Assembly: GCF_037975245.1 (NCBI RefSeq)
Contig: NC_092577.1
Span: 23,338,398-23,402,397 of the forward strand
Direction of reading: 5' to 3'
Length of the DNA: 64,000 nt
From: Apostichopus japonicus
Taxonomy: Eukaryota > Echinodermata > Holothuroidea > Aspidochirotida > Stichopodidae
Part shown: in pieces, positions 37,250-63,571 of the stretch
How positions within the stretch are numbered: position 1 is the stretch's first letter
How the letters are laid out: each line of letters starts with the position of its first letter
Program-made: the position numbers and the translations under genes
The notes under the pieces: generated by a model
Seen by the model: only the letters and a program-made list of their open reading frames with translations
Databases searched by the model: none
Told to the model about the DNA's origin: nothing

Positions 37250-40200
37250 ATGGATTTCGTTGAAGAAAAACTTCGTGAGTGGGGCCTAGAGAGATTCCTG
37301 CCAGCCTTTCAAGGTAATTTTTTATAAACATTAGAGCGGCGCTAGGCCGAACGCCTAGCCTAACGTTGTTGCCGTACTTACTTGTTGCTGCAACAAGTGT
37401 AGGCTACACACAGTAAAGCACTTGAGTTGTAGGCCTAGCCTAACGTTACGTTAGGGCCTCCATTAACCCTTTCCAGGCCAGCCCTAACATGTACAGTGTG
37501 CATTGGCTAGCCAGAGCACTTTTCAAATATTTTAATACTGTCAAACAGTTTCAGGAAATTATTTATAGAAAAAAATTGGTTGCTTGGATTCATTCGAGGT
37601 CTAGGCCTAGGCCTACATCATTTTTGAAGATAAAGACCTTGTCTTTCCATTTCTGGAGGTGAAAATGAGCTAGGCCTAGTAAATGATGTCACACCAATCC
37701 AAGATGGCCGCCGAAATTAAAAATGGTGGACAAAATTATACTGATGTTGCACTTAGCACCAGGGCTTTAGGTAGGATTGTGCTGGTACTGGCAGTGGTAG
37801 GGTGTGGTTTATGGAAAGCAGGGTGTTGCACTTGTTGAACGCTTTGCGCAATAGCGTGGGGTCAAGGGGCCCGCTTAGGGCCCCTTGTGGGGTCCAGGGG
37901 CGAAGCACCCTGGAAATGAAGCGATTTGGTGCACTTTACAGGCCTGAGATGGCGTTAAAATGTGCTCTGAAAGTGCAATTTTTTGGGGAGCAATATTAGT
38001 TTTAGCAAGAAATAAGACATACTGTACATAAAATGAATAAAAGGTTTTAAAAGAAATTACCTTGTCTTAAATGTTGACCTCTGTCAAAAATGTATGTATA
38101 GTAAATTATAGTACACTAGTACAGGTAAAGGCTTTGTCATGGCTTAAGATGTTAAAAAACAACTTTAAATAATAATGAATCGTAACATATTTTTATGTAA
38201 ACTGCAATTTTTTTATTTTGCTCTTTGCATTTTACTTGTCTCATAACTTATTAATTTATTAAAAGAAAATAAAACGTCGAGAAGAAACTCCACTATTTCC
38301 AATGCACCAATTCACATTCTTTAAAATATCATTGAGCCATGTCCGGTTGAAATTATAAAACCAGCAACAAAATCAATTTTTATCGCGCCCGTTGTCAGTT
38401 TGCACACCATAAACTGCGCGAAAGTAGTTTAAACCTACCACAGAAAATCTTTAATTATTTCACATAATTACAACACAGGTACATAAAGGTATTCAAACTG
38501 TACTACAAAAATTAAATTCAGTCAGCAAAACAGCCTGAATGAGTGAAGGTTAACCGTTTTTTGAAGTTAGGCTCCCAGTTTAGGCTAAGCATTTAGTACC
38601 CTATTGCTATCTTTGGGGCGGTAAAGTGCGCAAACTTACGTCGGTTGACAAGCAACAATAAAATTTCGTCCACCAACCTCTAATAAACTATCTATCGTTA
38701 AATCGACAGGTGGCTTGCTTGGCCTAGCCTGGGCCCTAGACCTACAAAAGGACGTAAAGTTATGCATTGCGCCATGAAAATAGCATCACCTAACCGGTAC
38801 TTTCAGCCTACATACTTCGGTTAGAATGAGTTGTTCTAACCGCTCAGTGACCCCATCTTTTAGACATAAATTATACCATACCTTAGTAAAAAAGTGAAGC
38901 ATAGTCCGTTTCATTTTGCAAGCCTGCGTTCTGGACTTCTCGTTACGAAAAAAATGTCTCCGACTGACACTGTTCGACTCGATAAAAATTCGGCCTATAG
39001 CTTGGCTTAGTAAATAATAGTACCATACCTTGCGAATTTTATGTGTTCCGTCCTGGAATCTCCCAGCGGATCTCTTAACATTCCAATCCGCGAGGCCAGA
39101 TGATTTATATACACAACTTTTAATTGGTTGCTGAAGTTGGTTTATCTCCGTACAAAAAAACCCATCCTAACCGGGGAAAAAAAACGAGCCACTCCAACTG
39201 GTGATGGGTGATATATACAGATTTGGACTGTGATCTATCATATGCAACAGTGTCTGTTTCTTGATCGAGGGAAACTACACACTATATCAACGGGGGTTAA
39301 CTTCGTGTTGGTCGTCGAGCAAAAAATTTACATCGCCACTCGCGATTTTGTTTTTCATGGTACAGTTAGGCCTTGCCGTATGTTGTTGTATCCGGGACTC
39401 TTTGTATTTTTATTACGCACGTGGTAACATTTTTGAGAAATGTCACATCGCTCGACGCTCGGTGTATGAAGAATGTACATAGTTTTTCTGTGAATTCCAT
39501 AATTTTGTGCAAGTAGTAACGGCAGCTGTGTTTTTTCGTTATTATATATTTATATATTTATTTTTGAACAACTCAATTTAGCACGGCTTGGTACAATATA
39601 GTAAGGCCGTGTTAGGGATTATAGGCCGTGTTTTTTGTTAGTTAGGCCGTGCCAAACACGGCCGCGCGTCCGGCTGCCTAAAGCCTTGCTTAGCACATTT
39701 ATAGGCCTAACTGTAAGTGTTTGATTACCACGGGCCCCGGGGCCCTGTTGCCTGTTGGTCAACATTGGATCTCCTAGGCCCAGCCCTAATTTGCTCAGAT
39801 CGTTCGTCATCACTGCTTTCAGACTCACCTGGTCCTCCCTGTGTCGCGTTTTCCTCTCCACCCTCCACATCGAAGCTATCATCCCCAACTTTCCGTTTTT
39901 TCGCGGAACTGGTATGCACAAAACCTACACTAAAAACTACATCAGAATCTGATGAATTGTCGCCGGAATCATCTGATAAGGGTGTCCAAATCAAAGTTAT
40001 TTTCGTCAAAGTTCTCTGATTCATCACCGCTAGGCTCGCTACTTCCACTTGAATCTCGCTCACTACTACTATTTTCCATCATTCAATACCGTAAGATTGC
40101 CGAAACACATGGCCAAAGAACGTAACATGCGACCAAAGATTTCACTTCCGAGTTGAAGCAGGTTCTGGTTGAAGTCAGCAAGCATTTACAGCCTGACTGG

Positions 40201-43200
40201 TGCACTAGAGAGACTAGGTGTCAATGTATCCACTAATGCTGAAATTGTCTACTATCGCGCTATGGTGATTCTGTGCAAATCGGATAAACTATCACAGAGC
40301 TATGGGAGGTAGAAGAGGAGCAAGTGGAAACACGTATTATTACGTATTTGGCTAGCAGCGGTAATATGAGTAGCCCATATTATTACGTAGTTGGCCTGGA
40401 AAGGGTTAACAAATGTGCGTAGGCGTACACAATCCTTTGGTTTTAATACGCATGAATGTACACATCAGGCCCATCCAGAGAATTGACTTCATTTTCAATC
40501 ATGAATTTTCATTCTTTCTTATCTCTGACAATTTTTCAAATTACTGAAGTAGGCCTAGGGGCCTAAGTAAAAAAAAAGTTTTAGGCCTAGGCCTAGGGCC
40601 TAGGCTATAAGTATAACAAAAATTATATGGTCCCAATTTTGTTTGTTATGACCATTCTGCTAAAATATTTGTTAATTCTTCTCTTCCTTGCTCAACAGAG
40701 AATGAGATAGATAGAGAAGGATTCTATCTCCTTGAAGATGAGATTGAATGCTTGAAGGAACTAATTCCTGCTGTTGGACCTCGATTAAAGTTAAAAAAGG
40801 AACTGAAGTTACTGAAGGTTAGTCTTTAGCCCCCTCACCATGATCATTTGTTATGGAGTGCTGATCATGGTTCACTGCACAGTAAATTATGCCTAACATC
40901 AGATTATGTTATGCTGCAAGCTTGACAATACATGGAATTTTTCTTCAAACCATAGAATTTCCTTGTGACCGATTTGAAACATTAAAAATATTACATATTT
41001 GGCCTAGTTACGTTAGGGGCTGTGTGAAACCTACACCCCCCCCCCCCAAAAAAAAACACTGTGAAATACCGGTATTGTACCCGATACCGGTATTGTATTG
41101 TCGGTAATACCGGTGCTCAAAATTCACAGTACCATCCAACCCTAATGTGATATTCCACCCGAACCTTCAATATTTTTAAGGCTACAGGTATACTTTAACA
41201 GACTGCAAACGTATGACAGAAAAAATGATGTTGTCATCACCCACAATTTGAAACTTGCAAACAGGCCAAGAATACAGCTGACATGAGTCACAAAACATGA
41301 ACTTAACAGTGTTCTGTTTTGTTTTCTTGTTATAGATCATGTCAGCTACCCTGGAAACATTGTTCCTGTAGAATGCTTTTATCCCATTTATACTGTACTG
41401 TATGTGAACTTGATTTGTGACTTGTACTGACTTGTATCTTGTTCAATATGGGTTTCGTTTGCTCACAATGTGGAATTGTCATAAATGGGTCGCCAAAAGC
41501 ATTGTTGTGGCATCTGCGAATTGCCCATCACCTAATTAATGGGCATGTTTTCACCAAAAGCATCGCTTGTGGTCAAAATGGATGTGAAAGATCGTTTTCA
41601 GGACGGACTGCTGCCTTTCGCAAACATTTGGGCACTCACAACTATGACAACGATGATGTTCCTGTACACGTGCCGGTGCCAGCACCACCTGATGCTGATT
41701 TTGCAGATGTTCCCGCAGACAATTTGGATGCTGACCACGATGAGGTTGAACCAGATGAGCCAGAAGGCGAGCTATGGGATGAATTGACTACAGAGGAAGT
41801 TGAAAACCGTGCAGCAATGCTTGTTGCAGGTTTACTAGCATCTAGTAGTACAGTACACTCCACTGTTACACAGGTTGTGGAACAAGCATCAGACTTGATT
41901 AATGACATGTCCTCTTTCATGATGCAGAGAGTGAAACAATTTGCCACCACTGTAGGCATTCCCCATGATGACCAGCACTTGCAAGCCTTGTTGACAGATA
42001 TTGATGGAGTTTCACATCCCTTCAGGAATGTTGGGAGCCAGTACAAGCAACGTAAATTTTTCCAAAACTGCAAAGCTTTTGTTGCTGCAGAAGAACTGCC
42101 CATGGGCGTGGCATATTATCCAGTGAACAATCCTTCAACTGGTAATGTACAGCAACATATGAAAACAGTCACCTTTCAGTACATCCCAATAAAGCCGCTC
42201 ATGAAGATGATCCTGGAAGAGACCGATGTCCTCAAAATATCATCTACCCACATGATGAGTGAAGATGGTCTCTTAAGGGACTTCCAGGATGGATCGTTCT
42301 GCCGTGAGAGTCCCCTGTTGTCATCTTCTGCCACCATCAAACTGATTCTGTATGTGGATGACTTTGAGGTGTCGAACCCTCTTAGTCCAAAGGCTGGTAT
42401 CCATAAACTGGGGGCAGTGTACTTCACAATTGCTAATCTGCCACCAAAGTATAGATCAACATTGTCCAACATGTTGTTGCTCATGCTTTTCAACTCCGGT
42501 GATGCCAGTTTGTATGGATATGGTGCTGTGTTTGCTCAATTCATCCAAGATATCAATGAACTCATTGCTGATGGATTGCACATTGTGACAAACTTCTTTA
42601 ATGGTAACGTGAAGATAGCAATAGGACAAATTGTTGGTGACAATTTGGGAATCCATTCACTATTTGGATTTGCAGGTGGTTTCACAGCTAACTATCTCTG
42701 TAGGGTGTGCAAGCTGCATCGGGATGCTATCAGGACATCTGTAAAAGAGCAACAGGGTCTTCTCAGGACCTTGGAGAACTATCAAGCTGATGTCGCCCAA
42801 GATGACTTACAGCAGACAGGAGTCAAGTCGCCATGTGCTCTAAATGACATCTCACATTTCCATGTTATAAACAGTCGTTCGCCAGACATCATGCATGATA
42901 TCCTTGAAGGAGTTTGTCCACTAGAGTTGAAGTTAGTTTTACAACAACTGATCCACAAAGAACTCTTAACCTTGAATGAACTGAATGCAAGGGTCACTAG
43001 CTTTAATTATGGCATTCCTGATAAGCGCAACAAGCCAGTACCATTCACTGCGAATGCTCTTCGCTCTCCAGATGGGGCCCCAGGACAGAACGCAGCCCAG
43101 ATGTGGTGCCTAATCCGTCATGTTGCAGTAATGCTTGGAGATCTTGTACCCGAAGGAGATGAGCATTGGGAATTGCATTTGGCACTACTGGATTGCCTTG

Positions 43201-46200
43201 ACATAATCTTCTCACCAATTATTAGCAATGGGGATACTAAGTATCTTTCTGAACTCATCAGTGACCACCACCAACTTTTCCTGGAATTATTTCCCGAAAG
43301 ACACCTGAAACCCAAGCATCACTTCATGACGCATTACCCCTCTGCAATCCGCCTGAATGGGCCACTAATTCACTTATGGGTGATGAGGTTTGAGGCATTC
43401 CACAATTTCTCACGGCGACTATCACACATAGTGTGCAACTTCCAAAACATAGCAAAAACTCTTGCCTATCGGAATCAGATGTTGCTATGTTTCAATATCC
43501 TGTCCAAGAAAGCTTTTGGAAGTGAACCACTAGAGGTCGGACCTGGAGAAACTGTTATCATCGCCTCTCTTGACAATGGTGCTGTGATTGCCCGAAATAT
43601 GCACATGGCACTGTACGATGAAATTTTTGTCTGTAAGTGGTGCCGGTTCCATGGCGTGGAGTATCGTAAATATCTGATGGTAGTCGTGGGGAAAGAAGAT
43701 GGTCTTCCAGTTTTTGCAAAGATAATACAGATATTTGCTTATGAGTCTATTGCAACTTTCATGTGTGAACTATGGCACACTGTGCAGTTCTCTAGGCACT
43801 ACCATGCTTATGTTGTAGAGCCACTGGGTGCCAAGGACATCGTATTCGTTGGTGTCAAAGACCTACTCGACTTTCACCCTCTGCATGCAGTGAAGGGGAG
43901 GAATTGCTCGAAGTTCCTAATTTCTCCACGTCACATTATCGGATAGATGGACTTTGTTATACAGTAGATGTCAAAGTTAGGGATCGGACAAATGCGCGAT
44001 TGCGTTTTTTGCGGCGCAATTTGCGTTTTTTGAGGTTTATTGCGTTTTTTGAGGTTTATTGCGTTTTTTTAAGATTTATTGCGTTTTTTTTTTAAATTCA
44101 CCAAAAAATGTATTTTTTTATGCCCAGATTAAGTCATTGAGAATTCATTCTGAGTAATGCATTATTTAATTTTGTTCTGAGCGTTGTTTTACAAATCACC
44201 CCACAAATATTTTCTGTGAAACTAGGTCCCGTAAATAATCCAACATCGTAAAATGGCACGGCCTAACGTTAGAATTAGATCGAGCTACATACAGTCCCAC
44301 ACTCCTACTGTAACTAGCGACCACAGCGAGCGAGCAACAAATTATGCACACGGTAATTAGAAACAACAGTTTTTTTTATTCATTTCATAAGAAAACTTCT
44401 CTTATCCAATGCAAGCACTAAATGATATATCCTGGAAGAGAACTCATCGGGCATTCTAACCGTATTATCCCAGTGGCTGTACTCCCGACAAAATCGGATG
44501 ATTATAAATCCAAAAAGTTTCGTGAATAAAATATTACAGCAATGGTGGGAATACAGTGAATAAGTCAAGTGTACATCAGCTGGATACATGTATGCATAGT
44601 CATAATGTCATTGTCTCTTCACACAGTAAACTTTATTGTACGTTCATTGGCTAACACTGTATGTTTCTCATACCTACACAGCAAAGAAATATGGAATTGC
44701 GCAATTCGCCGGGAGGGTGTCTCGCTATTGCTTAATCAGTAAACACCCAAGGATGTTGCCACCTAGAGTCGTAGACCAAAGTTTCTGAAATTGCATGGTT
44801 GTTGTTGTTGTTGTTTCAGGCGATAAATTTCAGAGTATTTATAAATTTAGCATTTTAATAGATGTATTATTTCTAACTATTATTTTGGTTAATTATTAAT
44901 ATTTTGAGGGATTTTCTTCTCACTGAAAATTACACAAAAAGTTGTAAATTTGAAGTGGCACCGCTGCCCATATTTTTCAATTTCCATGTGCTTTCACTGG
45001 TCATTTGTAACTCTGTATCGTAACAACATGGCTCCTGACCCACGATCTCGCTGCCTCATTAAATTTCCGATTAAGTAAAAAACTACACAGCAACAATAAG
45101 AGTGATATAAAATAAAAACAACAAAACTTACAACTTAAAAACAGCTTTTAAGACTTAAGTTCGTGTTTTAGAAGAAATATGATTATTTTTTCCAGTTTTT
45201 CTTCTTTAAAGTTTGGAGACCATTCAGCTTAAAATAATAATAGCAATAAAAATTATTGTAGAGACGAACATGCCTGTCGCAATTCAGACTTTCGGCAGCG
45301 CACTGACCTACCGGCGGAATACGCAAAAAAATGTAAACTGATAGCTAGTTTACGTCATAATTATTCCCATTTTCTTCGTTCTTTTCGTGACTTTTTAACT
45401 GGGATTGAAATGCTAAAAAAACAGCGCTGTTACACGTGCATAGACAGGTCATAAGTAACGTTACGTAAGTGCGTTTTTTTAATGCGTTTTTTTGCCATTT
45501 CGATTGCGTTTTTTGCGTTTTTTGTTAATTTAAGGTGCGTTTTTTGGTCTTGAAAATCGCGCATTTGTCCGATCCCTAGTCAAAGTGCATTCCCAATTTC
45601 ATGTACAGTGCAGTTATAATGTGGGTACAAGCTGCCACCAGCAACACTTTCCAGAGTAAAAATCGTGGCTACTTGTGTCAACCAGGGCTTTACCAACTCG
45701 AATGACTGCAGTGTTTCATCATTCCTCATATAGTAAGTTGTCATTATTTAGTACAGAAGGAATGTTGATGAGAACCATATTCAATGTGTAGACCGTCTGA
45801 CCAGGGGTCAACAGACTTTTGGTGGCCATAGGCCTTGTTATCTTGGATATTTTACAAATGAAATCATGGGAGGTCGCATATTAAAGGGGGGGGGTACTCG
45901 CATAATATGAGTATACAATTTGGAAGTAAGCAGTTTGGCCCCAAGATACACATGGGTCTCTCACTCTCTCACTTGCTTGAATTTTGAAGTCAAAATTCAA
46001 AACAACGGCCATAATAATATAATAAGAATATGCAACCTAGCAGTCCGCTAGAGTCTAGTTATGTGTCTGTATTTTATGAAACAGATCCACATTTGAGGGA
46101 ACATCATTATACTGTACATGGGTACCCTTTTCCTTAGAAATGACCCCCAGAAATGGATATGGGTTTTTAGTCTGACATGGCACACCCCCGACCAGGCGAC

Positions 46201-49200
46201 CAATTGCAAACCGGATCAAATAAGCCCACTGGCCTGATTCCTCATGATCACAGGCCGGACCTGGCTCACTGGCTTCATGTTACTGACCCATGGTGTTGAT
46301 AACAACAATCAAGTTGCACAGGAGTTTCAATAAGAATATATATGGACTAGTAATTCATGTTGTTTTCTTTTACATGCGGCAAATGGTCTAATTTGTGTAC
46401 AACAATCAAGTGTATAGTACATGTACATGAGTTATAGTGACATGCCCAGGTAATCTTGACTGCCAATTGGTCCTGACTGATAGTGGAATTGCTAGAAAGT
46501 GCCTGCAAAGTACACTATGTATGAAAACTAACAGTTAAAAAGCAAAAGAGTGCACATTAATATTCTTGAGAATCAGACATTAATGGCTTGAAGGACTGTT
46601 GATACAAAGGCAAAGGAAGCCAGAGCAATTAAACACAGCCATGGCTATATCATCTTATCCTGTAACATAATAAATAGTAGGCATCGGACAAATGCACGAT
46701 TTCAGGAGCCAAAAAAAAGCACCACAATTTTTCAAAAACGCAAAATCGCGGCCGAATTTTATGCAAAAAACGCACTGTAAAACGCACTTGAAAATACACA
46801 TAGATTGGCTCCCTTTTTATGTTAAAAATTCCCATTAAAATCACTCCAAATATCGTAAGATATTACCCAATAAAGTAGCGAACTAGCACTGTTGGGTGTA
46901 TTCCAATTGAGCAATTGCAATAAACCCTCCCGTAGGCCCCATGTCATCTTACCTGCACTGGCCGGCTGGACTGCACTGCGCTTGTTTGTACTATCGTAAT
47001 CACAACATTATGACACATGCCGTAAATTTGTATGGAAGCGAAGCTGGGCCGTGTATACGCGAAGACAGAACACTGTGGAGGTTTTCGTGTGAGAAATAAA
47101 AAATAAAGCTGACTGCTCTACCTGGCGATCACAATGTTTTGGACGCACAGAAATGATTTTGTACCTGGTTTATAAAGGCATAAATAGATCAAGTTTCGTA
47201 ATTTAAAAAATCCTAAACATCATACATTTAATTTCGACAGAAAATGCTTCATTTTTTATTCAGACATTGAAATTTTGCGTAGCTGACGGAGATTATAAAA
47301 AACCGCAGTGAAACACCAGAAAAGCGCGATCATGCAGTTGTTCGATGCCTACCTAAGAGTATAATAGCTCTAAAATTATCCATGTTGATTTGACAGGCTA
47401 GTGATGATGCCAGACAAGCAAGTGGTTCCAAACTACTATCAAGCAGCTCATGTGACTCTGACAGCGGAGGCTTTACCGATGATGGATCATTGGTATCTGA
47501 TAACCTGTCAGAAGCAGAACCAGACCCATCGATACATACACCGGTGAGACCAGGTTCATCATCAACCCCGACGGCAAGCGCAGGCAGAGGCCATATAAAA
47601 TCTAATGGACAACCCTCAAAGCGAATGAGAATGGATTTCGTAAGTGTTATATTTTCATCATGTTTCACTTGGGTGACATCAGGGTTTAATATGGCAGTGG
47701 AATATTTACGGCTAGTCAAAATGTTTACAATTTGAGATTTACATCATTGTTTTTACCGTTTCACACTACTGAAATCCGGCACAAGATCCCCCATCGTGTG
47801 CGTCTTTTGGGTATCAGTTCGTAAATTCCTAACCCAGTCAGATTCAGTTATCTGCTGCTTACTCTTCCTGGTACCAGACAATGCACGGTGTCAAGCATGC
47901 TCCATGACTTTTTTATGTTTATCTGCAAATTTTATTCAGTCTCAAACATATGTGATGCACAACTTGTAGTCTAGCAAGTTGAATTGTTCTGTAGATAATA
48001 CTGTATAGTTTAGGAATGTCCAAAGTTCTCCAACCCTTTGCCCTGGCAGGGCTATGTGATTCCTGAACCAAACTGATTAAAATCATAATTTCCATTGATT
48101 TATTTCATTTCAAGTCAGGAATTATCCAGCTTAATGCAAAATTACCAAACTTGACCCGGGCTTATATGTACAGTAGGCCTATATGTGCAGAGGACAATTT
48201 GAGAACTTATTTTGTTTACTATTTTGGTCACACAGTAGAAAGGATTAATTTCAAGGGGATGCCCTGGTTCATACAGATTCCGTCAGATTCATCCTTAATT
48301 TTGGGCAAAAGCCCCTGGGGCCCCATTTATGAAACCTTGTGTACATGTCAATATCATTGCCTGTTCCTTCTCAGTGCATTGCTTTTTCTGAAATGCTTTC
48401 ACAGAACATAACAGAAATCCTGAAAGCGGTGCATGGAGGTGACGAGCTGGTGGAGGAAATGTCTTCAGGCCTACTCTCTCCTAAGACAAGAAAACGTGTT
48501 GTCAACACACTGGTTTCATGTTTGATTGAGAAGCATGGAAAGCAGTGAGTATATACACTTGTCCAATCACAAAAGACAAAACCAATTTTTAATAGTTAAT
48601 CCTTATCACTCCTGTTTCTCAAACCCTGATGGTGGTGATTGATCACAATAAGCACATTCTGCAAGTTTGCAGTGTCAACTTGTGTGCATGGTACAACATG
48701 AAGATGAGAAGGCTGCTTGGACCTCAACCAATACAAGAGTTAGCTCGTGAGCCCCCCCCCCCCCCCCAGTTTTCAGAAAACCCTTGGTCTATTACACTGG
48801 ATTCTTCATTGACATACAAGTCGTTAAATTGGTTCAGACGGGGCTTTTCACTTTGGTTAACAGCCATTAACCTAGTTGGACTGATCATTCAAATGCACAG
48901 TGGTCACTCATCTTCCAGACTGCCAACCTTTATTGTGAGGAGTGCTTTGGTTTCTGGCAAATTTAAATGATTCATCTATAAAGGTTAAGATTATGGTTAT
49001 TTCTTAGTGCTGGGTGAAGCATTCTTGCAGTCATTCTTGCAATCATTCTTACCTTGTAGGCAGTGGCGTGTCATCCTCTAAGCGGATAGCTGCATTGTTA
49101 ATTCTTTGTATCTGCAAAAGCCTGTGTAGGGTTTCCTACACCTCGGATATGGCGAGGCATTTGTTTCTCTTATATGGCAGTTGCTTTTACGTAATGTACA

Positions 49201-52200
49201 ATTCTCACTGGTTGCTAATGTCACTATAAACTTGTATTTTCATTCATAGCCCTCCAAAGGATGTCAAGATGTTGATGACAAAAGCGATCATGGCAGAATT
49301 TCCATCACTTGATAACGAAGATGGTGATGGACATGTGAGTAGTCATTGTGATTTTAGGCTACAGTATAGGCTTGGGGATTGATTCACATACACACGAATC
49401 ACACACAAGGAAAGGAGATGAAATGGAAAGCATATGTTAGCAAACACAGCATACGTGTGTACTATAAAAAAAAAATTGCATGGATGGTCATGTGAGGTAC
49501 TCAGTGGCAAATGCCTGTAGCCCATGCAGGGAACGGAAGAGATAACACAAGTAGTAAAATATGTCAGTGACCATATTCAGTCCAAGTCATCTGATGCCTG
49601 CAATGGATACTTTAAAAAAGACTGTCCTAATGACAAGCTACTTTTTGGTGTGACACAGTAAAGCCTTAGTATTGAAGTGATATACAGAACCAATGTTGTA
49701 TATGAATATTATTATATAACTAGAAATGCATTTGCTACGCAAACACTACAGTATATCCCCGGGACCAGGGAGTTCCAATCAGCCACCAATGACCTTAACA
49801 AAGGTACAAACCTCTCAAAAGAAAGTTTGTTTGGACCCATTGGAGAATGGAGATGACATCCACCAAGTTTCCTTCCAATCCTACCAACTTGAAAAAATTT
49901 GCCAAAATCCAAAATGGTCGCTGCTATGAACTTCGATGACCTCCAAACTACATGAACTTCATTCGGGACCCAATGTAGATCACATCCACCAAGTTTCATT
50001 CAAATCGGACAAACTTCAAACTTCGCATAAATTATGCAAATTAGCGGTTCCCTGGGGGCCGACACTGCCCAATTTCGAACTTGTCCGAGCTTTCATTATG
50101 GTGAACATGTATACCAGGATTGAAGTCAATGGGGGTATGCGCTGAAGCGTGAGAGTGCTAACGCCTAAAGTTTCCGACGGCGACGGCGGTGAGGCCAAAA
50201 ACATAATATTCCCGGACTTTGTCCCAGGGATATAATCACATTTTGAGAAAAGAATTTCCTGACATTCAATTCAATCTACAGCGTCGGCCTATGATCGTTC
50301 GGCCGAGTATTGGAAATGTTAGCGCTCTCACGCTCAAGCACATTGACCGATTAACTTGCAACTTTGCAGATGTGTTTGTTCTACTAAAATCTCGGATGAG
50401 TTCGATTGTGGGTGTCGTGGCGCACCGGGCACTGCTAATATGCATAATTTGCGCCAAATTTTTAAGTTTGTCCGATTTGAGTGAATTTGGTATATGGGGG
50501 GGGGGGACTTTGCGTGCTGAAAAAGATGGCAATATTTCAAGGTCAAATTGGGCTGTTAATTTGCATAATTCACGCCAATTTTCCAAGTTGGTCCGATCTG
50601 AACGAAGCTTGGTGTACGGGAAAAGCTTTATGTACAAAAAATGGGGTGGTCATTGCTAGGTCATCGGAGGTCAAATTGGTGGCCATTTTGATTTCTTTGC
50701 GAAACAGGTGTGTCGCTGATTTGCACGTTTCGGAACATGGCGATCGTTTTGGGGCCCACTTGCAGTTTCGCACCATATCACCACCACCCGGCGGCCATTT
50801 TAGTGCGGTATGGTGTATCGGGATCGAACAGCTCGAAAAGTACACGGAAGTGTGGGGTTGACTAGTTGACTATGACCAGGGTAATATCTGTGAAGCGCTT
50901 TGAGACTGGCTTCGTCGGTATAAAGCGCTAGCGAGATATTATTATTATTATTTTTTTGGATTTTTTTACGAAACTAGTTTGTTGCTTATTTGCGCGTTTT
51001 GGGACATGGCAGTCGCACCCAGTTTCGCACCCATGTGACCCCACCCGGATTGCTCAGATGTGGGCATATACACGTTGGCGGTTTACCCGCCAGCTGATGT
51101 CTAGTTATTTATGATGAATATTATTAAGCATTCCGTTCTTACAATATGGTGGCCTAAATGTAGTAGTATTTTCAAAGTTTTGTTAATTGCAATACCATTT
51201 TCCAACGATCTTCAGATTGCAAAAATATGTTCATCATATGCAGTAATCATTTTATGTTAACTTATACAGCTAGCTTGGTACACCCCTGGAATCTGTGGCC
51301 ATGATGCATCTGGACTCCTTGAGAACAGATTAAGGAATCTCCGGAAGAGGAACCTGTGCGAGAAGGCTGTGACTTCACTCAAGGAAATTCCAAAGCCGAA
51401 CCTAGTCAGTACAGTTGATCTAGCACTCTCTGAAGGTGAGTCTGAATTGATTTTCAGCCAAGTCACAAGAGAATCCCTTCAGTCAGGAATGTGCCCGAAA
51501 AAGTGCAATGCAGTATTGGAACATGCACCATATAAAACAACCTGGATAGGTTTTTATAGTAATTTTACAGTAAAAAGTTACCAAGTGCGTGGGAAAATGG
51601 ATATACCCACACAAGTACCTCGGGAGAAAAACACGAGTGCACTGCTGGGTAGTGGGTACTGACACCCATTGCCGACTGGCAGGGGAGAGCGGATGGCCGT
51701 GTAGTACGGATCTGAACTCTGGATCTTAGGATAGCTGGTTCGGGTCCTCCTTGGGGCTTTTCGGTGTGTCTCATCGTCGCTCAGTTGAGTTAGTTCAGTA
51801 CCCTGTAAAATTTTATCTCTGCTTCAGCAAATTGCGACACCCCCCACCCCCCCCCCTCCTGGCCGCTGTCAGTTGGTGCAAGCTAGAGAATATCATCTCC
51901 TCATTTTATCAAGCGGTTAGCTCAAATGGTAGAGCACCCGCTTTCGCCTGAAATTCAAACCCAGAACAAGTCTTGCTGAAGACTTTAAAAATGGAACATA
52001 CTGCCAGCGTTCATGGTGCTCAGCATTAAGTACAGAGTATGAAAGACGAACCAGTGATGGAAAAAGATGGCGCAGATAAAACCATGACGAGTTAAAAGTG
52101 AGCTCAACTTAAGAACCAAACCTTTCATTTTAATTCATGAACCCTTCAATTCCGGACCACAATTTGGAGCTTCTTTGAAGGCCGCTAGTCTGTTTAATGG

Positions 52201-55200
52201 GAATTATTCTTTATCTTTCCTAAGATATGCCTGAGGATGCTGACATGACTGCTATGATTAACTGGCTAAAGCACCACAATGCACCTGCACAACAGGTCAC
52301 TGAAATGATGAAGCAGACTTGCCGGTACCGTGCTAACAAGATACGGACTGAAAAAGAAAGGCCGCTGCGTGAGCTATTGAAGGAATATCCACGGCTCATC
52401 GATACGGATGGAATGGTAAGTGTGACAAATTTCAGTAAATCATAGGAGCATTGGCCAGAAAGACCCCTAACTGCACCAAACTTTTGCCTATAAACACTGG
52501 TCTACTCTTGGTGATCAACCACAAGGGTATCTACCTACCTGCATCAACTATGAGCTATGAAACTATCTTGGCGGTCTACTCCCATGTTTTTTCACTGCAA
52601 CATCCCCATACTTTTCAAAATGTTACAAGTAGTTTCTCGAGTTAGACATTAACTAGTCGGAGAAAATAAATTTATTACACTGGGTGGTTTTTACTTCTTT
52701 GTGACTTTGTTCAGCCTGGTTGCCCTATTTTATGACCATTTTGTTGTCACGAATAAACAATTCTGTGCCCCTTCACTTGCCCGACAAAGAATACGCATAC
52801 TATGAGGAGGCCTCTTAGTAGGCTTCTGCACAGCGTTTGGCTAGTTCGTAGAGTCAATCAAACTTCATTGAGCGGCTAATATAGTGGTTAAATCTTGGCT
52901 TCCAAAATTCTGAGGGTGGACTGCTGACATGCCAGACATTATAAAGTGCACTTGGTTGTCTGCCAGTTGGCATGCCATAAACTGCATAAAATGCCAAACC
53001 GCATCGGGGGTGTTCAAAGAATCAGACAGCTACGCCAGTTAAAAGGTCTACGTGAACTATGAATGATCTGTGACAATTCATGTCACCCTGGGGCACGAAG
53101 GGTTAAATATTGGCGCAAAATGTATGTGATCTGTTTAGAATTACAACATGTTTTCCCGTTGTGCTATCTGTTACAGGTAGAGCAGGATTTCAGGATTCTG
53201 TTCCCGGAGCTGTGCGATTCCCTCTATATGAAGTGGCCGGGATTCTGTACAAAAGTCATACAGTATGCCGACCGGCAACTGAAGTGGAGACCCCTGTTGA
53301 ACTTACGTGGGATGACAGATGGGGGTGAGTAAAGCATTATCTCAACTATAACGTTTTCCCTGGCAGGAGACCTCTTAGCATGTGATATATTTCTACCACA
53401 CTTGTATGGTGAGCTCTTCTATCAGGTTGTGTTCATCAAACAACCTGAGAGCGTTAAGGGGCATGTGTTCTAACTAACTTGTTGGTGGTGGTTACATTCC
53501 TTCCCACCCAACCCCCTATAATTGTGTAATGTTATTAAGATTATTCCTAGAGCTGTACAATGCACCCATTCCTTTGTTCCATGGAACCACTAAATTGTAA
53601 TCACTTGCTAATGGAGAGCGGTTTGTATATTTGGTGTATAACTTTCGAACCAATTCTCAGCACTTTTTGTCGATCAGATGCTCTCCAATAGCCTAATTTC
53701 TCAAATTGCTAGCCTTCTTGTTTCTTTGTAGTCTTCATATTTATTAGCAGCCTTTGTGTGAACGACTGACAACAGATTATTTCTAGCTGAATGAATATTA
53801 CTATGCAGGGACAAACTTACAGACCTGAAATGTTGGTATGTCGCACAATATCGGCAACTCCATGTTGCAACAATTGACAGTGTCCAGTTGGTTTGGTTGG
53901 AGTTTATTTCCTGTTGGTAGGCCTTGAACTCGCACTGCAAACATTATTTTTTTCTGAAGTTTTATTTTCATAACATATGCAATGGCAATTGTATAATTGT
54001 TTCCTTGTATTACAGATGACGAGGAATCTAACGTTGCACTTCAACTTTTGGGCCTCCTCTTCCCTACTGGAAGTCAGCGGACAGCTGGAAGAAAAGGGCC
54101 CGACAAGAGAGCAACAGTAGAAGAAGCTCTTCAGTCTTTCATTCAAATTGAGGAGGTGAGACATGAATCGCTCTTCTGTATTTGGAAAGTAGTTTATTTT
54201 CATCTTGTGCTTTATGTACTATAGCAATGTATGATGCGTGCTTGACATGATGATGGTACGATAGGTACTGCTGTTTGTGACAGAGAAGCTGGTCATTGTG
54301 AGTGAGTGCCAGTGTAAGGCTTGGGACCTATAAGGTTTTTTGATGATGGAATGTACTCTGCAGTACAATTTTGACATGGAGATTGCATAGAAACAGACAG
54401 ACCACACCTTGAATGAATCGGTAATGCTTAATGTCCAAATGTCATTCAAAGTGTGAATGGAGACATTGTTTGAAATGGGTTTTATTCATTCATTTTTTTC
54501 ATTCAAGGCTAAGATTGCCACAAAGTGCCCTTCAGGATAATTGATATGTGCAACAGCCTATGCCAGTAATGTGGGGAAGAAATCCACAATTAGTATGTCA
54601 TCAGCATCTGTCATTAATATAACTCGTATTTTAGTGGCAATTGCTTTTCCCCACCCCACCCCTAAAGCAATGTTGTGGGTGAAGGAAACATCTGCAACCT
54701 ACCTGACGGGTAACCCGGTACCCTCGTTCCATTATTCTACCCGATGCAATCACTACTTATTAGGGATATCGCTCTTTCTAAAGACTGGAAGGTGTCGATC
54801 AATATGCAGTGGCGGGAGTGTGGCTTAGCGGTACAGTGCCTGCTTTGCATGCGAGAGGTCCCCGGTTCGATTCCTGCCTGTCAATTCTGGGTAAATTTTC
54901 CAGAGGTGGCTGCAACTGCAGTTGTGATGGACGAGGTCTTCGACTTGAATTCCTGGTTCTGCCGAGGTCTGGTGGACTTGTGAAATGGTTGGGGTTGGTG
55001 AACGGGGCTCTTGAAATAAGTCTCGCTCATCAGCTGTAAGCAGTGACGCTGGACAGCTCCCGCTCCTCCGGGTTCTGAGAAAGTGGTCAGCTCCTGGAGT
55101 GCACTGTCGTCCGTCGGATGGGGACGTTAAATGGCGGTCCCAAGAGCAGGATGGGATTGGATTGGTTACACCCCTGCCTCGACGTCTGGGCACTCTTCGA

Positions 55201-55631
55201 AAAGAGAAGGCGAGTTATCATCCACGCCCAAAACCAGCCAAGGTTCCTCGATGAGCCTTCAGGCTTTCTGAACCCTTAGTAACTAAACTAATATATTTTG
55301 TTCTATTGTCTTCCAGATTGGTACCAACATACCCACATTTTTGGAGGGGAACAAACAGACGCAGCCGTTCATCCTAGCCCTTGGGGAGAGAAAGTCTCCG
55401 GAACAGTTGTTTGTAGTGGTTGAAGGACAGACAGTCTCATGCAGTAGCTTATTGCATGCAGTGGACGTGTGTTTCAAGCTTTTTTATTTGTTAGACGTCC
55501 ACTACCCATGGCAATGCTCCAATACGTGGGATTTTGTCCAGAAGTTTATATATGGGATAGGAGATGGCAAAGGCAAAGGACGTAGTGCCTCGGCAGTCAC
55601 ACTGCTTTGTAACTATCTGAAGGCAAAATAG
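37250..55631 (+). CDS. SAM-domain protein, SAMD3-like (copy B), ten exons, 536 aa
   Basis: Exons: 37,250-37,313; 40,699-40,817; 47,397-47,639; 48,405-48,544; 49,250-49,334; 51,270-51,435; 52,225-52,415; 53,177-53,324; 54,016-54,155; 55,317-55,631. All introns are GT-AG and phases match at every junction, giving 1,611 nt with one terminal stop. Residues 1-61 form a SAM domain (MDFVEEKLREWGLERFL through LKLKKELKLLK). Residues 62-142 are a Ser/Gly/Pro-rich linker ending in basic KRMRMDF. Residues 143-432 hold helical segments typical of the SAMD3-like family (INWLKHHNAP, LLKEYPRL, LFPELCDSLYMKWPGF, VALQLLGLLFP). The terminal exon carries the conserved block VDVCFKLFYLLDVHYPWQC and IYGIGDGKGKGRS. 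Length is close to human SAMD3 (about 520 aa). SAM domains usually mediate protein or RNA binding; the true role is unknown. Intron 1 holds a piggyBac element; intron 2 holds a transposase-like ORF and two hAT elements. Codons are ordinary and no disruption is seen. The family name is from memory of sequence style, so moderately sure. Confidence 0.88.
37467..40405. mobile_element. piggyBac-superfamily element with TTAA TSD (non-autonomous derivative)
   Basis: Perfect 14-bp terminal inverted repeats CCCTTTCCAGGCCA (37,467-37,480) and TGGCCTGGAAAGGG (40,392-40,405) are flanked by TTAA at 37,463-37,466 and 40,406-40,409, the piggyBac hallmark. It is 2,939 bp long and sits in intron 1 of the SAM-domain gene. 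Only a remnant of a transposase N-terminus is seen (minus strand, 39,725-40,079). The central part has no transposase and includes two GC-rich hairpins at 37,864-37,913 and CCGTG-rich sequence at 39,600-39,665. Perfect termini suggest it was moved by a transposase supplied elsewhere, fairly recently. Confidence 0.92.
39725..40079 (-). pseudogene. piggyBac transposase N-terminal acidic region, remnant
   Basis: From ATG at 40,079 the frame reads MENSSSERDSSGSSEPSGDE then DENNFDLDTLI and stops. A neighbouring frame continues PLSDDSGDNSSDSD...SAKKRKVGDDSFD...GESESSDDERSEQ. Asp/Glu/Ser-rich N-termini are typical of piggyBac transposases. The position inside exact piggyBac ends supports this. The catalytic domain is absent. 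Confidence 0.6.
41058..41130. repeat. Small inverted-repeat element with TACCGGTA palindromes
   Basis: ACTGTGAA (41,058-41,065) and TTCACAGT (41,123-41,130) bound a 73-bp block holding three copies of the palindromic core ATACCGGTAT or a close variant. A C/A homopolymer run precedes it. It may be a minimal MITE or a fold-back relic. Confidence 0.6.
41448..43946 (+). CDS. C2H2 zinc-finger, CACTA/Tnp2-like transposase-related protein, intact (832 aa)
   Basis: A single open frame of 832 codons begins MGFVCSQCG at ATG 41,448 (context caatATGG). Two N-terminal fingers are visible: C5-C8-H22-H27 and C41-C46-H60-H64. An acidic/proline linker follows (about 70-115). The body has motifs expected of an RNase H-fold Tnp2-type enzyme: LYVDDFEVSNPL, VGDNLGIHSLFGF (D398), SPDIMHDILEGV (D480/D484), QMWCLIRH, KPKHHFMTHYPSAI (H624-H629) and MRFEAFHNFSRR (E649). 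A D..D..E triad of D398, D480 or D484, and E649 is an inference from spacing and conservation with the 60-kb copy. No intron or disruption is seen. It lies in the sense orientation within intron 2 of the SAMD3-like gene; its own ends (TIRs) were not found. It could be a live transposase, a host-adopted gene, or part of a paired system. Confidence 0.88.
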   Translation: MGFVCSQCGIVINGSPKALLWHLRIAHHLINGHVFTKSIACGQNGCERSFSGRTAAFRKHLGTHNYDNDDVPVHVPVPAPPDADFADVPADNLDADHDEVEPDEPEGELWDELTTEEVENRAAMLVAGLLASSSTVHSTVTQVVEQASDLINDMSSFMMQRVKQFATTVGIPHDDQHLQALLTDIDGVSHPFRNVGSQYKQRKFFQNCKAFVAAEELPMGVAYYPVNNPSTGNVQQHMKTVTFQYIPIKPLMKMILEETDVLKISSTHMMSEDGLLRDFQDGSFCRESPLLSSSATIKLILYVDDFEVSNPLSPKAGIHKLGAVYFTIANLPPKYRSTLSNMLLLMLFNSGDASLYGYGAVFAQFIQDINELIADGLHIVTNFFNGNVKIAIGQIVGDNLGIHSLFGFAGGFTANYLCRVCKLHRDAIRTSVKEQQGLLRTLENYQADVAQDDLQQTGVKSPCALNDISHFHVINSRSPDIMHDILEGVCPLELKLVLQQLIHKELLTLNELNARVTSFNYGIPDKRNKPVPFTANALRSPDGAPGQNAAQMWCLIRHVAVMLGDLVPEGDEHWELHLALLDCLDIIFSPIISNGDTKYLSELISDHHQLFLELFPERHLKPKHHFMTHYPSAIRLNGPLIHLWVMRFEAFHNFSRRLSHIVCNFQNIAKTLAYRNQMLLCFNILSKKAFGSEPLEVGPGETVIIASLDNGAVIARNMHMALYDEIFVCKWCRFHGVEYRKYLMVVVGKEDGLPVFAKIIQIFAYESIATFMCELWHTVQFSRHYHAYVVEPLGAKDIVFVGVKDLLDFHPLHAVKGRNCSKFLISPRHIIG
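43978..45578. mobile_element. Non-autonomous hAT element, 24-bp TIR, exact 8-bp TSD
   Basis: The termini are perfect 24-bp inverted repeats beginning TAGGGATCGGACAAATGCGC, flanked by GTCAAAGT at 43,970-43,977 and 45,579-45,586. It is 1,601 bp long. Both subterminal regions hold five direct GCGTTTTTT words (44,004-44,090 and 45,470-45,547), probably transposase-binding repeats. No transposase frame was found. It landed 31 bp after the stop codon of the transposase-like ORF. Confidence 0.94.
45587..46677. other. Intron sequence, no gene recognised
   Basis: Part of intron 2 of the SAM-domain gene between two hAT elements. No frame or repeat structure is supported. Confidence 0.6.
46678..47351. 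mobile_element. Second, diverged hAT element of the same group
   Basis: It starts TAGGCATCGGACAAATGCAC and ends GCAGTTGTTCGATGCCTA, imperfect inverted termini related to the element at 43,978. AAAAACGCA-type words (the complement of TGCGTTTTT) recur near the left end. The flanking 8-mers do not match well, so it is older. It ends 45 bp before exon 3 of the SAM-domain gene. Confidence 0.8.
49715..51113. mobile_element. Unclassified 1.4-kb insertion with 13-bp TSD in intron 5
   Basis: ATGAATATTATTA occurs on both sides (49,702-49,714 and 51,114-51,126). Just inside are ATAACTAGA (49,716) and TCTAGTTAT (51,100-51,108). The interior holds repeated phrases of the TCCACCAAGTTTC/TCCGATTTGAGTG type and a GCGCTTTGAGAC...AAAGCGCTAGCGAGATATTATTATT segment. 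No protein is encoded. The long duplication with short inverted ends leaves the class open. Confidence 0.7.
51905..51965 (+). repeat. tRNA-like fragment, possible SINE head
   Basis: GCGGTTAGCTCAAATGGTAGAGC gives an A-box-like segment; GAAATTCAAACCC about 30 bp later is a weak B box. No full cloverleaf forms. It lies in intron 6 of the SAM-domain gene and may belong to a longer SINE. Confidence 0.4.
54813..55215 (+). mobile_element. tRNA-derived SINE
   Basis: The head resembles tRNA-Ala: A box TGGCTTAGCGG (54,821-54,831), a TGCTTTGCATGCGAGAG anticodon-arm-like segment, and a canonical B box GGTTCGATTCC (54,864-54,874). A tRNA-unrelated body ends with GGACGTTAAATGGCGGTCCC (about 55,122), a module seen in several invertebrate SINEs. 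It is located in intron 9 of the SAM-domain gene. Confidence 0.82.
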
Positions 55632-58807: not shown

Positions 58808-59113
58808 TACACTGTTCATTCGGATTGAAAAGCCTGTTAAAAAATGAACCGAAACGGCTCAAATTTGAACCGAACAAATGATCAAATGTGCACTCAAAAC
58901 TTTGAACCGATAAATCGGTTCAAAATGAACTGAGACTGTTCATTTTGAACCGATTTATCGGTTCAAAGTTTTGAACCGGCAAATGGTTCAAAATTTTGAA
59001 CCGGTAAACCGGTTCAAAATGAACAGAGTCGGTTCAGTGCCCATTTGATCCTTTGTCCGGTTCAAATTTGAGCCGTTTCGGTTCATTTTTGAACCGGTTG
59101 TTTTTAGAGTGTA
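58808..59113. mobile_element. GAACCG-array fold-back MITE
   Basis: About 306 bp bounded by TACACTGTTC and its counterpart TTTTTAGAGTGTA. The outer 80-90 bp of each side are inverted copies (both contain AATGAACCGAAACGGCTC). The whole is packed with more than a dozen GAACCG/CGGTTC words, such as TTGAACCGATAAATCGGTTC. TA or GTAC may be the target-site duplication. It is non-coding. Confidence 0.85.
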
Positions 59114-59807: not shown

Positions 59808-59976
59808 GCACTGAGAATTTGTGTAGAAATCATGAAACATTGAGGAATGTAGAAAAGAAAGTTGTTCGAACTGAAGTCTGACAAGCGTTTCTGTCATAGG
59901 AGTTTGACTTCAGTTCGAACAACTTTCTTTTCTACATTCCTCAATGTTTCATGATTTCTACACAAATTCTCAGTGC
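59808..59976. repeat. Perfect 71-bp inverted repeat with 27-nt loop
   Basis: The left arm (59,808-59,878, starting GCACTGAGAATTTGTG) and right arm (59,906-59,976, ending CAAATTCTCAGTGC) are exact reverse complements. The loop is 59,879-59,905. CTGACAAGC at 59,878-59,886 is also complementary to GCTTGTCAG at 59,975-59,983. A long dsRNA-like hairpin would form if transcribed. Confidence 0.96.
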
Positions 59977-60601: not shown

Positions 60602-63100
60602 ATGGCATATTCTTGCTTCCTTTGCCATGTTATTATAACTGGGGCTGCTTCACAATTGCTACAACATTTACATTCTGCACATGCCTTGTATGATGGGAAA
60701 GGTCTGCTTCTTCATTGTGATCAGGGTGGTTGCCCTGCCACATTTAGCACATTCAATTCCTTCCGAAAACATTTAGTCCGGTGACATCAACAGCAAGGAA
60801 TGGGTTACCCAAATCAGCCTCAGAATGCAGTATTTGTTAATGTTGAAAATGATTGTCCTTTCGATGTTGCCGAGCCAGGGCAAGACAATTTTGAAATTGA
60901 TCAAGAAGAAATTAATGATTACAACAATACATTTCTGGAGAAGATGAAAATGCAAGCTGCCATGTTCATTGGCACCATGCTTTCTGATAGAAATATGACT
61001 CATGCATCCATTCAGAGAGTAGTGAATGCTGTCACAGATTTAACATCGAATACATTAACACTCTTGAAAACCAGGATGCAGTCAGTGCTTACAGGATTTG
61101 ATGTTGATTTATCGACTCCACAGTGTGAAAGGCTTTTTTCATTGTTTGAGGCAGTTGAGAATCCCTGTCTTGGGCTGGAAACCCTCTACAAGCAGGAGAA
61201 ATATTTTGAAGAAGACTTCAGGATTCTTAAACCAAAAACAGTTGCCCTTGGAATTAGGTATGATACAATAACTGATAGTGATATAGAAGGACACATTTCA
61301 GTACGTTTCTGTCATAAAAACATTGGAAATGGTTTTAGAACAGCCGCTTGTAAGAGGATTTTGTGAGATGGGGCATGTTTCAAAAGATGTGATTCTTAGA
61401 GACTATTGTGATGGTAAGCAGTTTCAAAAACACTTTCTATTAATGGTTGATGCTAAAGCATTACAGCTGTGCCTTTACTTTGATGAAGTGGAGGTCGTCA
61501 ATCCACTTGGGTCAAGGAGGGGCGTCCACAAGCTTGGGGTTTTGTATTTCACTCTGAAGAACCTTCCACCAGAATACAATTCAGCGCTTGATAACATCCA
61601 TTTGGTAGCAGTATTCACTTGTATAGACCTAAAGAAATATGGCTTCTCCAACATACTGGCACCCTTCATGGAGGAACTGAAGCTCTTAGAGTCAGATCAT
61701 GGTGTTGAATTTCAAACAAAGAGGGGTTTTCTTTCGAAGCGTGGAACAATAGTCCAAGTTACTGGTGATAACTTAGGACAACATGCAATTTGTGGATTTG
61801 TAGAAAGTTTTTCTGCAAATTACCCATGTCGTTTTGCCTTTGTTCTAAACAGGAAATACAGTATATGTTCTCTGAAAGTGGTTTTCAGTTACGTACAGTG
61901 GAAAAATATAAACAACACTTGCAGATGGTACTTGAAAATCCCCTCATGGTTTCTCGCACAGGTGTAAAAATGCCATCACCACTAAATGAATCTCGGTACT
62001 TCCATGTGACAGCCAACCTTAGCGCTGATATCATGCATGACATATTACGAGTTTCACCTATGGAAGTGAAGCTTCTACTAAGTCAATTGATACTCCAGGA
62101 ACATTTATTTGAACTTGGTGTACTGAACATGAGACTCTCAAATTATGACTACGGGTTTGTTGATAAAGGAAACAAACCATCAGAAATCACACTGGCTACA
62201 CTGAAGAGCTTAGATCATGGACTGAAACAGAAGGCATCTCAGATGTGGTGTCTGACTAGAGTATTGCCTGGTTTGGTAGGAGATTTGATACCAGTAGACC
62301 ATAAACATTGGCATGTTTACTTACTGCTGAGACAAATAATGGATATATAATCTTTGCAAAGTGCATTACTGAAGGAATGTGTCATCAGTTGTCATATCCT
62401 ATAGAAGAGCACCACCAACTAATGCGCAAGTGCTATCCAAATGTCATTCTAACCCCAAAACATCACTTCATGGTGCACTACCCCCGTCTGCTCTTGGAGT
62501 CAGGGCCATTAGTTAATACATGGTCTATGAGATTTGAAGCCAAACACTTGTTTGCAAAGAGATTAGCTAATGTAGTGTGCTCTTTTAAAGACATTTGTTT
62601 CACAGTAGCATCCAGGCATCAGGTGGATCATTGCATTAGGTGGCGAGCAGGAAGCTGTATTCATGCTGAACTAGAAACTGGCAACAGACACCTGAAAGCA
62701 ACTGAGGTTTCCAGCATTAATGACTATCATGTCCTCCTGTAGAAAGTGCCTGGTTTGTCACTGCACGATGAAGTTTACACTATACAACTGTAACAACATC
62801 TGGAACATGCTACCGGAAGTCCATGTTTGTTGTAATTGACACTGACAAAACATCGCAGGATCCAGTATTTGGACAAATTGAAGACATAATTTTGATTGGG
62901 GAAAATGTGTTCCTACATGGGGTAGTGTGGTGTGCTCAGTTTTTTTGTCGTCATCATTATGCTTTTAAAGTTGAAAGTACTGGCACCCCTTTCTTTTGCA
63001 ACCTTACAGAACTTAAGAGATGTTTCTCCTCTACATAAGACCAAAAGTGCCACTGATCAAGATTTTGCAACATTTGCAAGAAATTTATTATCAGAGAACA
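60602..63100 (+). pseudogene. CACTA/Tnp2-like transposase-related gene, broken (copy 3)
   Basis: From ATG 60,602 the frame reads MAYSCFLCHVIITGAASQLL with two C2H2 fingers (CFLCH...HLHSAH and CDQGGC...FRKHL), then a stop. Later pieces in neighbouring frames align in order with the intact 832-aa copy: MQAAMFIGTMLSD, RDYCDGKQFQKH, LYFDEVEVVNPLGSRRGVHK, KNLPPEYNSALD, TGDNLGQHAICGF, ADIMHDIL, MWCLTRVLPGLVGDL, TPKHHFMVHYPRLL, MRFEAKHLFAKRL and a C-terminal LRDVSPLH. At least six stops or frame changes occur. Divergence from the 41-kb copy is considerable, so the two are separate lineages. The conserved Asp, Asp and Glu positions are retained. It lies directly upstream of the PB1-like exon at 63,260. 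Confidence 0.85.
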
Positions 63101-63259
63101 TACTGCATGAGGCATCTAAAACATCAATTTTTTTTAGTTCAGAACCGTACAGCGATTCTGTGAAAACTGGGGGCGAATTGCCCGTCGCCCCGCTTAAATC
63201 CGACCCTGGAACCGTAGTTCATATTTTTCATACATTTTCTCAAATTCAGAATGGAGGTG

Positions 63260-63571
63260 AAAAGGATTTGTGTTACACATGGAGAGAAAACAAAACTTGT
63301 GTAAATGACACATTGGAAATCATCAGAAAGACGTTTTCAATACATGGAGACTTAAAGCTTCTAGCCAAATATGATGGCATTACCAAGTTTGTTGATATCG
63401 ATCCAGATGATGAAGATGATGTTTATGTCTTCGAACAAAGTACAGAGCTCCTAGTTCATACCATCAGTCAGGAGAATTCTTCATCCAGCAGCGGCTCGGC
63501 TGACACCAGGGCTCATTTTTAGATGAAGATGGATGTTCCCCCCCCCCCCACCAAGCAAGCGCTCGTGTAGG
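63260..63571 (+). CDS. First coding exon of a third SAMD3-like/PB1-like gene (copy C, partial, frame-changed)
   Basis: After a pyrimidine-rich stretch ending CTCAAATTCAG, ATG at 63,261 opens MEVKRICVTHGEKTKLV, resembling the start of a PB1-like ubiquitin-fold. The neighbouring frame continues VNDTLEIIRKTFSIHGDLKL, then FVDIDPDDEDDVYVFEQ, the acidic OPCA-like region typical of PB1 folds. A Ser-rich tail follows. A frame change lies near 63,303, and another near a C run at 63,539-63,549. A GTGAGT donor at 63,572 would end the exon. Copy A begins with the same kind of domain. The remaining exons would lie beyond the window. Whether the gene is live is uncertain. Confidence 0.6.

Follow-up and report, generated by a model that had tools for sequence, protein, structure and literature searches.

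Do transposase genes and SAM-domain genes that lie side by side belong to one mobile system, or have members of two multi-copy families come together by coincidence? The question is posed by a window of 64,000 nucleotides (the whole stretch of DNA analysed here) from Apostichopus japonicus, in which a sequence-only reading had noticed three CACTA-like transposase genes and three SAMD3-like genes and had suggested a two-gene mobile system. Spliced genes and LINEs give the window the look of animal DNA. The two kinds of feature, the transposases T1, T2 and T3 and the putative accessory (S) genes A, B and C, alternate along the window, with T2 placed inside B, and all six lie on the plus strand, as that reading had it (Table 1).

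Table 1. Coordinates of the transposase copies, the putative accessory genes and related features in the window
Feature	Position	Strand	Basis
T1, transposase fragment, frame-shifted	~372-850	+	tblastn with T2, E=2.9e-14
Gene A, decayed multi-exon gene, ATG at 11,695	11,681-17,541	+	chained alignment to B
Gene B, SAM-domain gene, ten exons, 536 aa	37,250-55,631	+	splice sites, open frame, SAM_1
Gene B, exons 1-5	37250-37313, 40699-40817, 47397-47639, 48405-48544, 49250-49334	+	
Gene B, exons 6-10	51270-51435, 52225-52415, 53177-53324, 54016-54155, 55317-55631	+	
Intron 2 of B, containing T2 and two palindromic hAT-like insertions	40,818-47,396	+	
T2, transposase ORF, single exon, 832 aa	41,448-43,946	+	ORF list, tblastn
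hAT-like palindromic insertion, TIR TAGGGATCGGACAAAT, 8-bp duplication GTCAAAGT	43978-45578	.	TIR scan
T3, decayed transposase	60,602 to ~63,090	+	four tblastn segments and two short C-terminal matches
Gene C, frame-shifted first coding exon of a third putative accessory gene, remainder past the window end	63,251-63,523	+	

T2 is the intact transposase copy, and its single uninterrupted frame of 832 codons, found at the place and on the strand given earlier, suggests that the copy is young or under selection. By eye, its N-terminus appears to hold two C2H2-like fingers. Under the CMC(T) motif definition in the accessible text of PMC12730594, the catalytic residues would be D304, D398 and E649, with motif positions computed and the assignment made by eye; the zinc residues, likewise assigned by eye, would be C418/C421 for C(2)C, then H483, and H624/H625-H629 for H(3-4)H. 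T2 also resembles the animal TRC elements in a CXXC near the second D and in a D-x-M-H motif, but differs from them in that no Transposase_21 match and no CCC-type ends were found. Compared by eye with the TRC boxes in the accessible text of PMC1636069, it has DD for DG and no WP in box I, which is a misfit, and in box A it has P for the first residue and E for L before G. Because the CMC(T) residues are present, whereas box I misfits and box A is partial, we class T2 by motif, as judged by eye, as apparently CMC-type (CACTA/Mirage/Chapaev), short of a proven member of CACTA or TRC. By motif, the earlier designation as CACTA-like survives as far as the CMC group.

Pfam, Transposase_21 included, gave no match to the whole T2 ORF at E<=1 or to 395 aa of its core at E<=10. 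No relative was found in the PDB by sequence, and a profile search there brought up nothing beyond two sequences of a single unrelated protein (E=0.55). The structure model, which bears on the RNase H-like core fold expected of CMC/CMCT transposases, was poor (pLDDT 43.9).

The other two transposase copies are degraded. T3 aligns with T2 over 60,602-62,778 in four tblastn segments with frame changes, the best of them at E=2e-53 and 1e-51, and it is extended to ~63,090 by two short C-terminal matches, for which 1/500 and 0/500 shuffles were as good; the start and strand given earlier for a gene ending at 63,100 hold, for a copy that has decayed. By eye, it retains the CMC residues of T2 minus the second C of C(2)C. 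T1 had been read as transposase-related from 1 to 865, and its relationship and strand stand, but tblastn detects it only over ~372-850. Its ORF at 479-862 matches T3 at E=3.4e-17 and T2 at E=5.6e-16; in an alignment read by eye, the first catalytic D (LYNDDF) is kept and the second apparently falls at the broken end. The three copies are mutually diverged, as had been stated: T2 and T3 are 38, 47 and 46% identical over three core pieces aligned and ~25% near the N-terminus, and T1 shares 39% identity with T2 and 33% with T3.

Meeting the broken end of T1 is a minus-strand ORF of 212 aa (833-1471) with an OTU/otubain-like GDGNCFFRS motif, for which the Pfam Peptidase_C65 match (E=0.00066) is under the cut-off, and a 46-bp tandem repeat with eight copies and 94% matches lies at 1577-1944. 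Upstream of T3 are nested palindromes with many TTTGAACCGGTT-like units (58828-59102) and an inverted repeat (59808-59976), perhaps a young hairpin, with 71-bp arms that are 100% complementary and a 27-bp spacer.

Among the accessory genes, B is intact. Its exons were picked by eye at consensus splice sites; the introns are all GT...AG, the ten exons, once joined, read through 536 aa without interruption over a span of 18.4 kb, and an AATAAA stands at 55,723. Residues 1-61 give a match to Pfam SAM_1 over profile positions 8-64 of 64 (E=0.002; 18.9 bits and so under the curated cut-off of 23) and to SAM_2 at E=0.028, and a scan of the whole protein gave SAM_1 at E=0.13. Eight of the nine PDB sequences matched are SAM-domain proteins (best E=0.01). 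The C-terminal region is presumably SAMD3-like, and B would thereby share with the SAMD3-like proteins of fish and invertebrates both an N-terminal SAM domain and a C-terminal region. What had been called a SAMD3-like gene is upheld as a ten-exon frame with a SAM domain, and the SAMD3 label is putative.

Provided that the exons picked by eye are correct, T2 is truly nested in B, within intron 2, in agreement with the sequence-only reading. One alternative is an artefact of the gene model, in which exons 1-2 and exons 3-10 of B would be separate genes, T2 would be intergenic, and A and C would have been misread. Such an error would be compatible with a model drawn from genomic sequence alone, with the weakness of A and C, and with the phase 0 of the junction between exons 2 and 3, which arises by chance in ~1 of 3 cases. 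However, ten exons with consensus sites form a single open frame, and a SAM domain ahead of such a C-terminus fits SAMD3-like proteins, and we consider the artefact quite improbable. On the reading that we tentatively prefer, exons 1-2 and 3-10 of B would be joined in one mRNA, and T and S would share a transcript and move together.

Intron 2 also holds a hAT-like insertion that starts 31 bp past the T2 stop and has a perfect 8-bp duplication, as well as a second, related palindromic hAT-like insertion (~46,680-47,355, by eye). SINE-like, tRNA-like stretches were seen by eye in introns 6 and 9 of B (51915-51980 and 54815-54890), and ARAGORN found no tRNA in the whole window.

Gene A carries stops and a frame change. 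In a tblastn search with B nothing in gene A fell below E=16, and four pieces of A had no Pfam match at E<=1. When A and B were compared piecewise, with one of the seven pieces in the wrong frame, one piece stood above chance (13/1000 shuffles as good) and the other six did not (168-942/1000). A chained alignment, which used the right frame, was equalled by 1/500 within-piece and 11/500 order shuffles at one gap setting and by 4/500 and 14/500 at a second, but by 43/500 and 500/500 at the strictest. Given these results across gap settings, gene A probably, not certainly, belongs to the family of B as a distant member. The locus (claimed as 11,681-17,542) and the strand are accordingly retained, but the gene is decayed and its kinship to B is modestly supported.

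Of gene C, proposed as a third SAMD3-like gene from 63,260, we find a plus-strand exon, but one exon only and a frame-shifted one. It lies ~160 bp downstream of the last T3 match, and not ~200 bp after the transposase C-terminus as had been put forward. A 198-codon plus-strand frame (62926-63522) runs without a stop from the T3 C-terminal match into the C exon, with ~53 codons between the two, and could be due to chance. The PB1 label once attached to the first exons of A and C finds no backing: Pfam gave no match to either exon at E<=10 (for C without its first residues, which lie in a different frame), the two exons do not match each other above shuffles (135/1000 as good), and a single-sequence model of the first exon of A is all-helical with a pLDDT of 59.

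Ahead of gene A, a long LINE ORF lies on the minus strand (9237-11441; reverse transcriptase E=6e-31), and a stretch immediately past its 3' end (9073-9265) recurs at 32859-33052 and, in shorter form, at 16309-16365. Two plus-strand 5S rRNA genes or copies, 192 bp apart (21931-22049 and 22123-22241), score 51.5 and 82.1 bits with Rfam, and the surrounding repeat is 91% alike.

The arrangement of transposase and accessory gene differs from pair to pair, with T1 ~10.8 kb before A, T2 nested in B, and T3 160 bp before C. When T2 is counted as standing before the body of B, the chance of a common strand together with the order T, S, T, S, T, S is ~1/640 with even strands, ~1/220 if the plus strand has the probability of 4/6 seen in other fragments with a Pfam match, and ~1/90 if it has the 7/9 seen in other long ORFs; the figures are hand arithmetic, made post hoc on a pattern picked by the reader. 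The Pfam fragments (E<=0.01; 11 scanned, with 9/10 of the hand-chosen ones on the plus strand) lie at 7,429, 26,873, 28,300 and 30,316 on the plus strand and at 836 and 9,240 on the minus strand, and the long ORFs are those of at least 150 aa other than the T and S pieces and an ORF antisense to T2. Because both sets also lean to the plus strand, the shared strand carries little weight. The state of preservation is concordant in 3/3 pairs, T1 and A being decayed, T2 and B intact, and T3 and C decayed, which has a chance of ~1/3 and depends on calls made for A on by-eye exons and for C on one exon. Three pairs from a single window, of which two are degraded, are the basis for the claim of a recurrent two-gene mobile system.

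The same order and strand occurring three times would also suit T-S units duplicated in tandem at a host locus, after an ancient joint capture or domestication of a transposase and a SAM gene, with one unit still intact. T2 and B are indeed intact without visible element ends, and in the accessible text of PMC1636069 DeMarco et al. bring up domestication in connection with animal TRC copies that lack recognisable TIRs. For neighbours, however, the units would have to be very old, as the T copies are 33-47% identical in the core and the resemblance of A to B is barely detectable, and by eye all catalytic residues are kept in T2. We regard such a locus as unlikely.

Element ends were sought in five scans for terminal inverted repeats (TIRs): ungapped inverted repeats, without a shuffle control; CAC..GTG with a 2-3-bp duplication (10 shuffles); TIRs of any start, 13/16 matching, with a duplication of at least 3 bp (20 shuffles); CA..TG, TGT..ACA and CAC without duplication (20 shuffles); and CCC-start TIRs with a 2-bp duplication (30 shuffles). 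As a positive control, the any-start scan found the first hAT-like insertion of intron 2, against 0 in 20 shuffles. None of the five scans revealed convincing ends, whether for T2 by itself, T3 by itself or B with T2, and hence the TIRs and 2-3-bp duplication that would enclose both genes, as the two-gene proposal envisaged, did not emerge, nor did any around the transposase alone.

With both ends in intron 2, T2 had 0 pairs in the CAC, any-start and CCC scans with duplication. A single CA..TG pair in intron 2 (shuffle mean 0.55, maximum 2) has its right end in the second palindromic insertion. When the left end was allowed from intron 1 on, the any-start scan with duplication gave three pairs in two places (mean 0.70, maximum 2), a count above all shuffles that we rejected because the right ends lie inside the two palindromic insertions. 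For T3 there were 0 pairs in scans other than that for CA and TGT starts without duplication, which gave 1 when the right end had to fall in the gap (mean 0.25, maximum 1) and 3 when it could fall anywhere (mean 2.00, maximum 4). For B with T2, the scans with duplication gave 1 pair for CAC (maximum 2) and 2 for any start (mean 1.20, maximum 3), and the scan without duplication gave 1 (mean 0.20, maximum 1) and 4 (mean 1.35, maximum 5) with near ends and 3 (mean 1.15, maximum 4) and 21 (mean 13.85, maximum 21) in the wide setting; in the shuffle-controlled scans several of its counts were above the mean and none was above the largest shuffle. Counts of CAC..GTG pairs, the CACTA/EnSpm type, never exceeded the largest shuffle for T2, T3 or B with T2, and decayed ends are possible; for CCC TIRs with a 2-bp duplication, the TRC type, no pair turned up at either of two settings in any of five intervals. 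The two flanks of B share six 10-mers, a number reached by 109/454 random pairs.

The absence of ends cuts both ways, as it weakens the case for a young stand-alone T2 in the intron and leaves an element made of B and T2 unsupported. In a further explanation, two unrelated multi-copy families are present, ordinary CMC elements and expanded SAM genes of host or other origin; T2 would have inserted into an intron, and T3 next to a relic, by chance, and the ends of T2 would since have decayed. No convincing ends surround both genes, the window is full of other insertions, and an intronic single-ORF CACTA relative has a precedent in SmTRC1, which according to the accessible text of PMC1636069 was first seen inside an intron of a gene. 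Harder to reconcile with two independent families are an intact T2 with no pair of TIRs and duplication in intron 2, where the neighbouring hAT-like insertion was found at once, and the concordance of order, strand and state in three pairs. We take this coincidence seriously, as an explanation that ranks close behind the one to which we incline.

Our own preference, which is tentative and falls short of an even probability, is that the T-S pairs are remnants of CMC-type transposons with an En/Spm-like two-protein layout. In such elements, a single-exon DDE transposase T would share its strand with a multi-exon accessory gene S and would sit either within one of the first introns of S or upstream of it, and the two proteins would be produced from one transcription unit, as in En/Spm. 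T would cut and paste the element, and S, with the SAM domain seen in B, may oligomerise and help to assemble or regulate the transposition complex, a part like that of TnpA. It is by this analogy that we infer for S a role as the oligomerising partner of T.

Splice acceptor-like sites bear in part on the putative shared transcription unit. Sites with a score of 8.5, at least as high as six of the nine acceptors of B itself, lie 112 bp before the ATG of T2 (at 41,336) and 115 bp before that of T3 (at 60,487), and sites of this kind occur ~0.8 times per kb. The best acceptor-like site of T3 is another, 28 bp before the ATG, with a score of 9.9. Compared with random intervals, the corresponding sites ahead of A and C are not rarer (0.42 and 0.27), and the first exon of B, taken as a control, has a value of 0.40. 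The sites before T2 and T3 do no more than hint at splicing from an upstream exon.

We favour the two-protein layout because of the CMC residues, the nesting of T2, the agreement of state in 3/3 pairs, the order and strand (~1/90-1/640), the acceptor-like sites of score 8.5, and the lack of TIRs for T2 or T3 alone. Counting against it are the lack of TIRs above shuffles for B with T2, the plus-strand bias, the three differing arrangements, the weak kinship of A and B, the single exon of C, the ordinary acceptor sites of A and C, the better acceptor of T3 at 28 bp, the lack of a Pfam transposase match for T2, and a sample of three pairs in one window.

Relatives were also sought beyond the window by searches seeded with short peptide patterns, which may miss distant ones. 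None was found for T2 or its pieces in viral contigs, for T2 in phages and plasmids, or for the last exon of B in viral contigs, the sole collection searched for S. A degenerate pattern picked out 22 bacterial stretches in prokaryote contigs, which we take as chance because tblastn of T2 gave one match among them, at E=0.23. For an animal family, the lack of relatives in viral, phage, plasmid and prokaryote collections is unsurprising. A literature search by title with SAM and SAMD3 terms returned no link to a DNA transposon; Repbase, in which animal EnSpm elements are described, was outside its scope and may hold one.

It is possible, and in our judgement more doubtful than probable, that animal CMC transposons carry SAMD3-like genes, which would supply a second protein of TnpA type, and that the transposase sits inside one of their first introns, as in maize En/Spm. 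SAMD3-like genes have undergone large expansions in fish and invertebrates. If they are of TnpA type, these expansions would be transposon genes and vertebrate SAMD3 would be a domesticated accessory protein, and a large family of SAM-domain genes, so far unexplained, would turn out to have come from mobile elements. The gene-within-gene layout of En/Spm would then extend to animals. In RAG1 and RAG2, a CMC-type transposase acts together with another protein encoded by the element, and the present system would stand beside them as a further case.

Several characterised elements invite comparison with B and T2. Fungal CMCT transposons carry TET/JBP genes according to the accessible text of PMC12730594, and as CMC-type transposons with a further gene they are like the arrangement proposed here; unlike it, their second gene is a different one and complete elements with their ends have been characterised. 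In the flatworm CACTA relative SmTRC1, the transposase and other proteins come from one alternatively spliced unit, and as far as the accessible text of PMC1636069 goes, its authors found nothing similar to the non-transposase proteins in other TRC elements and describe no SAM protein for TRC elements, whereas B has one. CACTA elements generally combine a transposase with a second ORF (accessible text of PMC4158355). The maize En/Spm element comes with transcripts of one unit that are alternatively spliced and with a TNPA that binds subterminal repeats (accessible texts of PMC2613891 and PMC1636069). B and T2 are unlike it in that no CACTA ends or 3-bp duplication were found, the intron is the second and not the first, the first exons of B encode a SAM domain, and shared transcription is only putative. 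Nesting of the En/Spm kind is seen, on the by-eye exon model, for T2 in B and for neither T1 nor T3. The tnpA gene of En/Spm, with 11 exons and a 67-kDa product, carries the tnpD ORF in its intron-1 region, and the related elements described include ones of 17 and 20.5 kb (accessible text of PMC2613891). En/Spm and B with T2 appear alike in that each has an accessory gene of many exons with the transposase ORF, in the same orientation, inside one of its first introns, and the accessory proteins are similar in size, the ten exons and 536 aa of B standing beside the 11 exons and 67 kDa of tnpA. Since the transposase ORF of En/Spm is also intronic in its accessory gene, B with T2 comes closer to En/Spm than the sequence-only reading had said.
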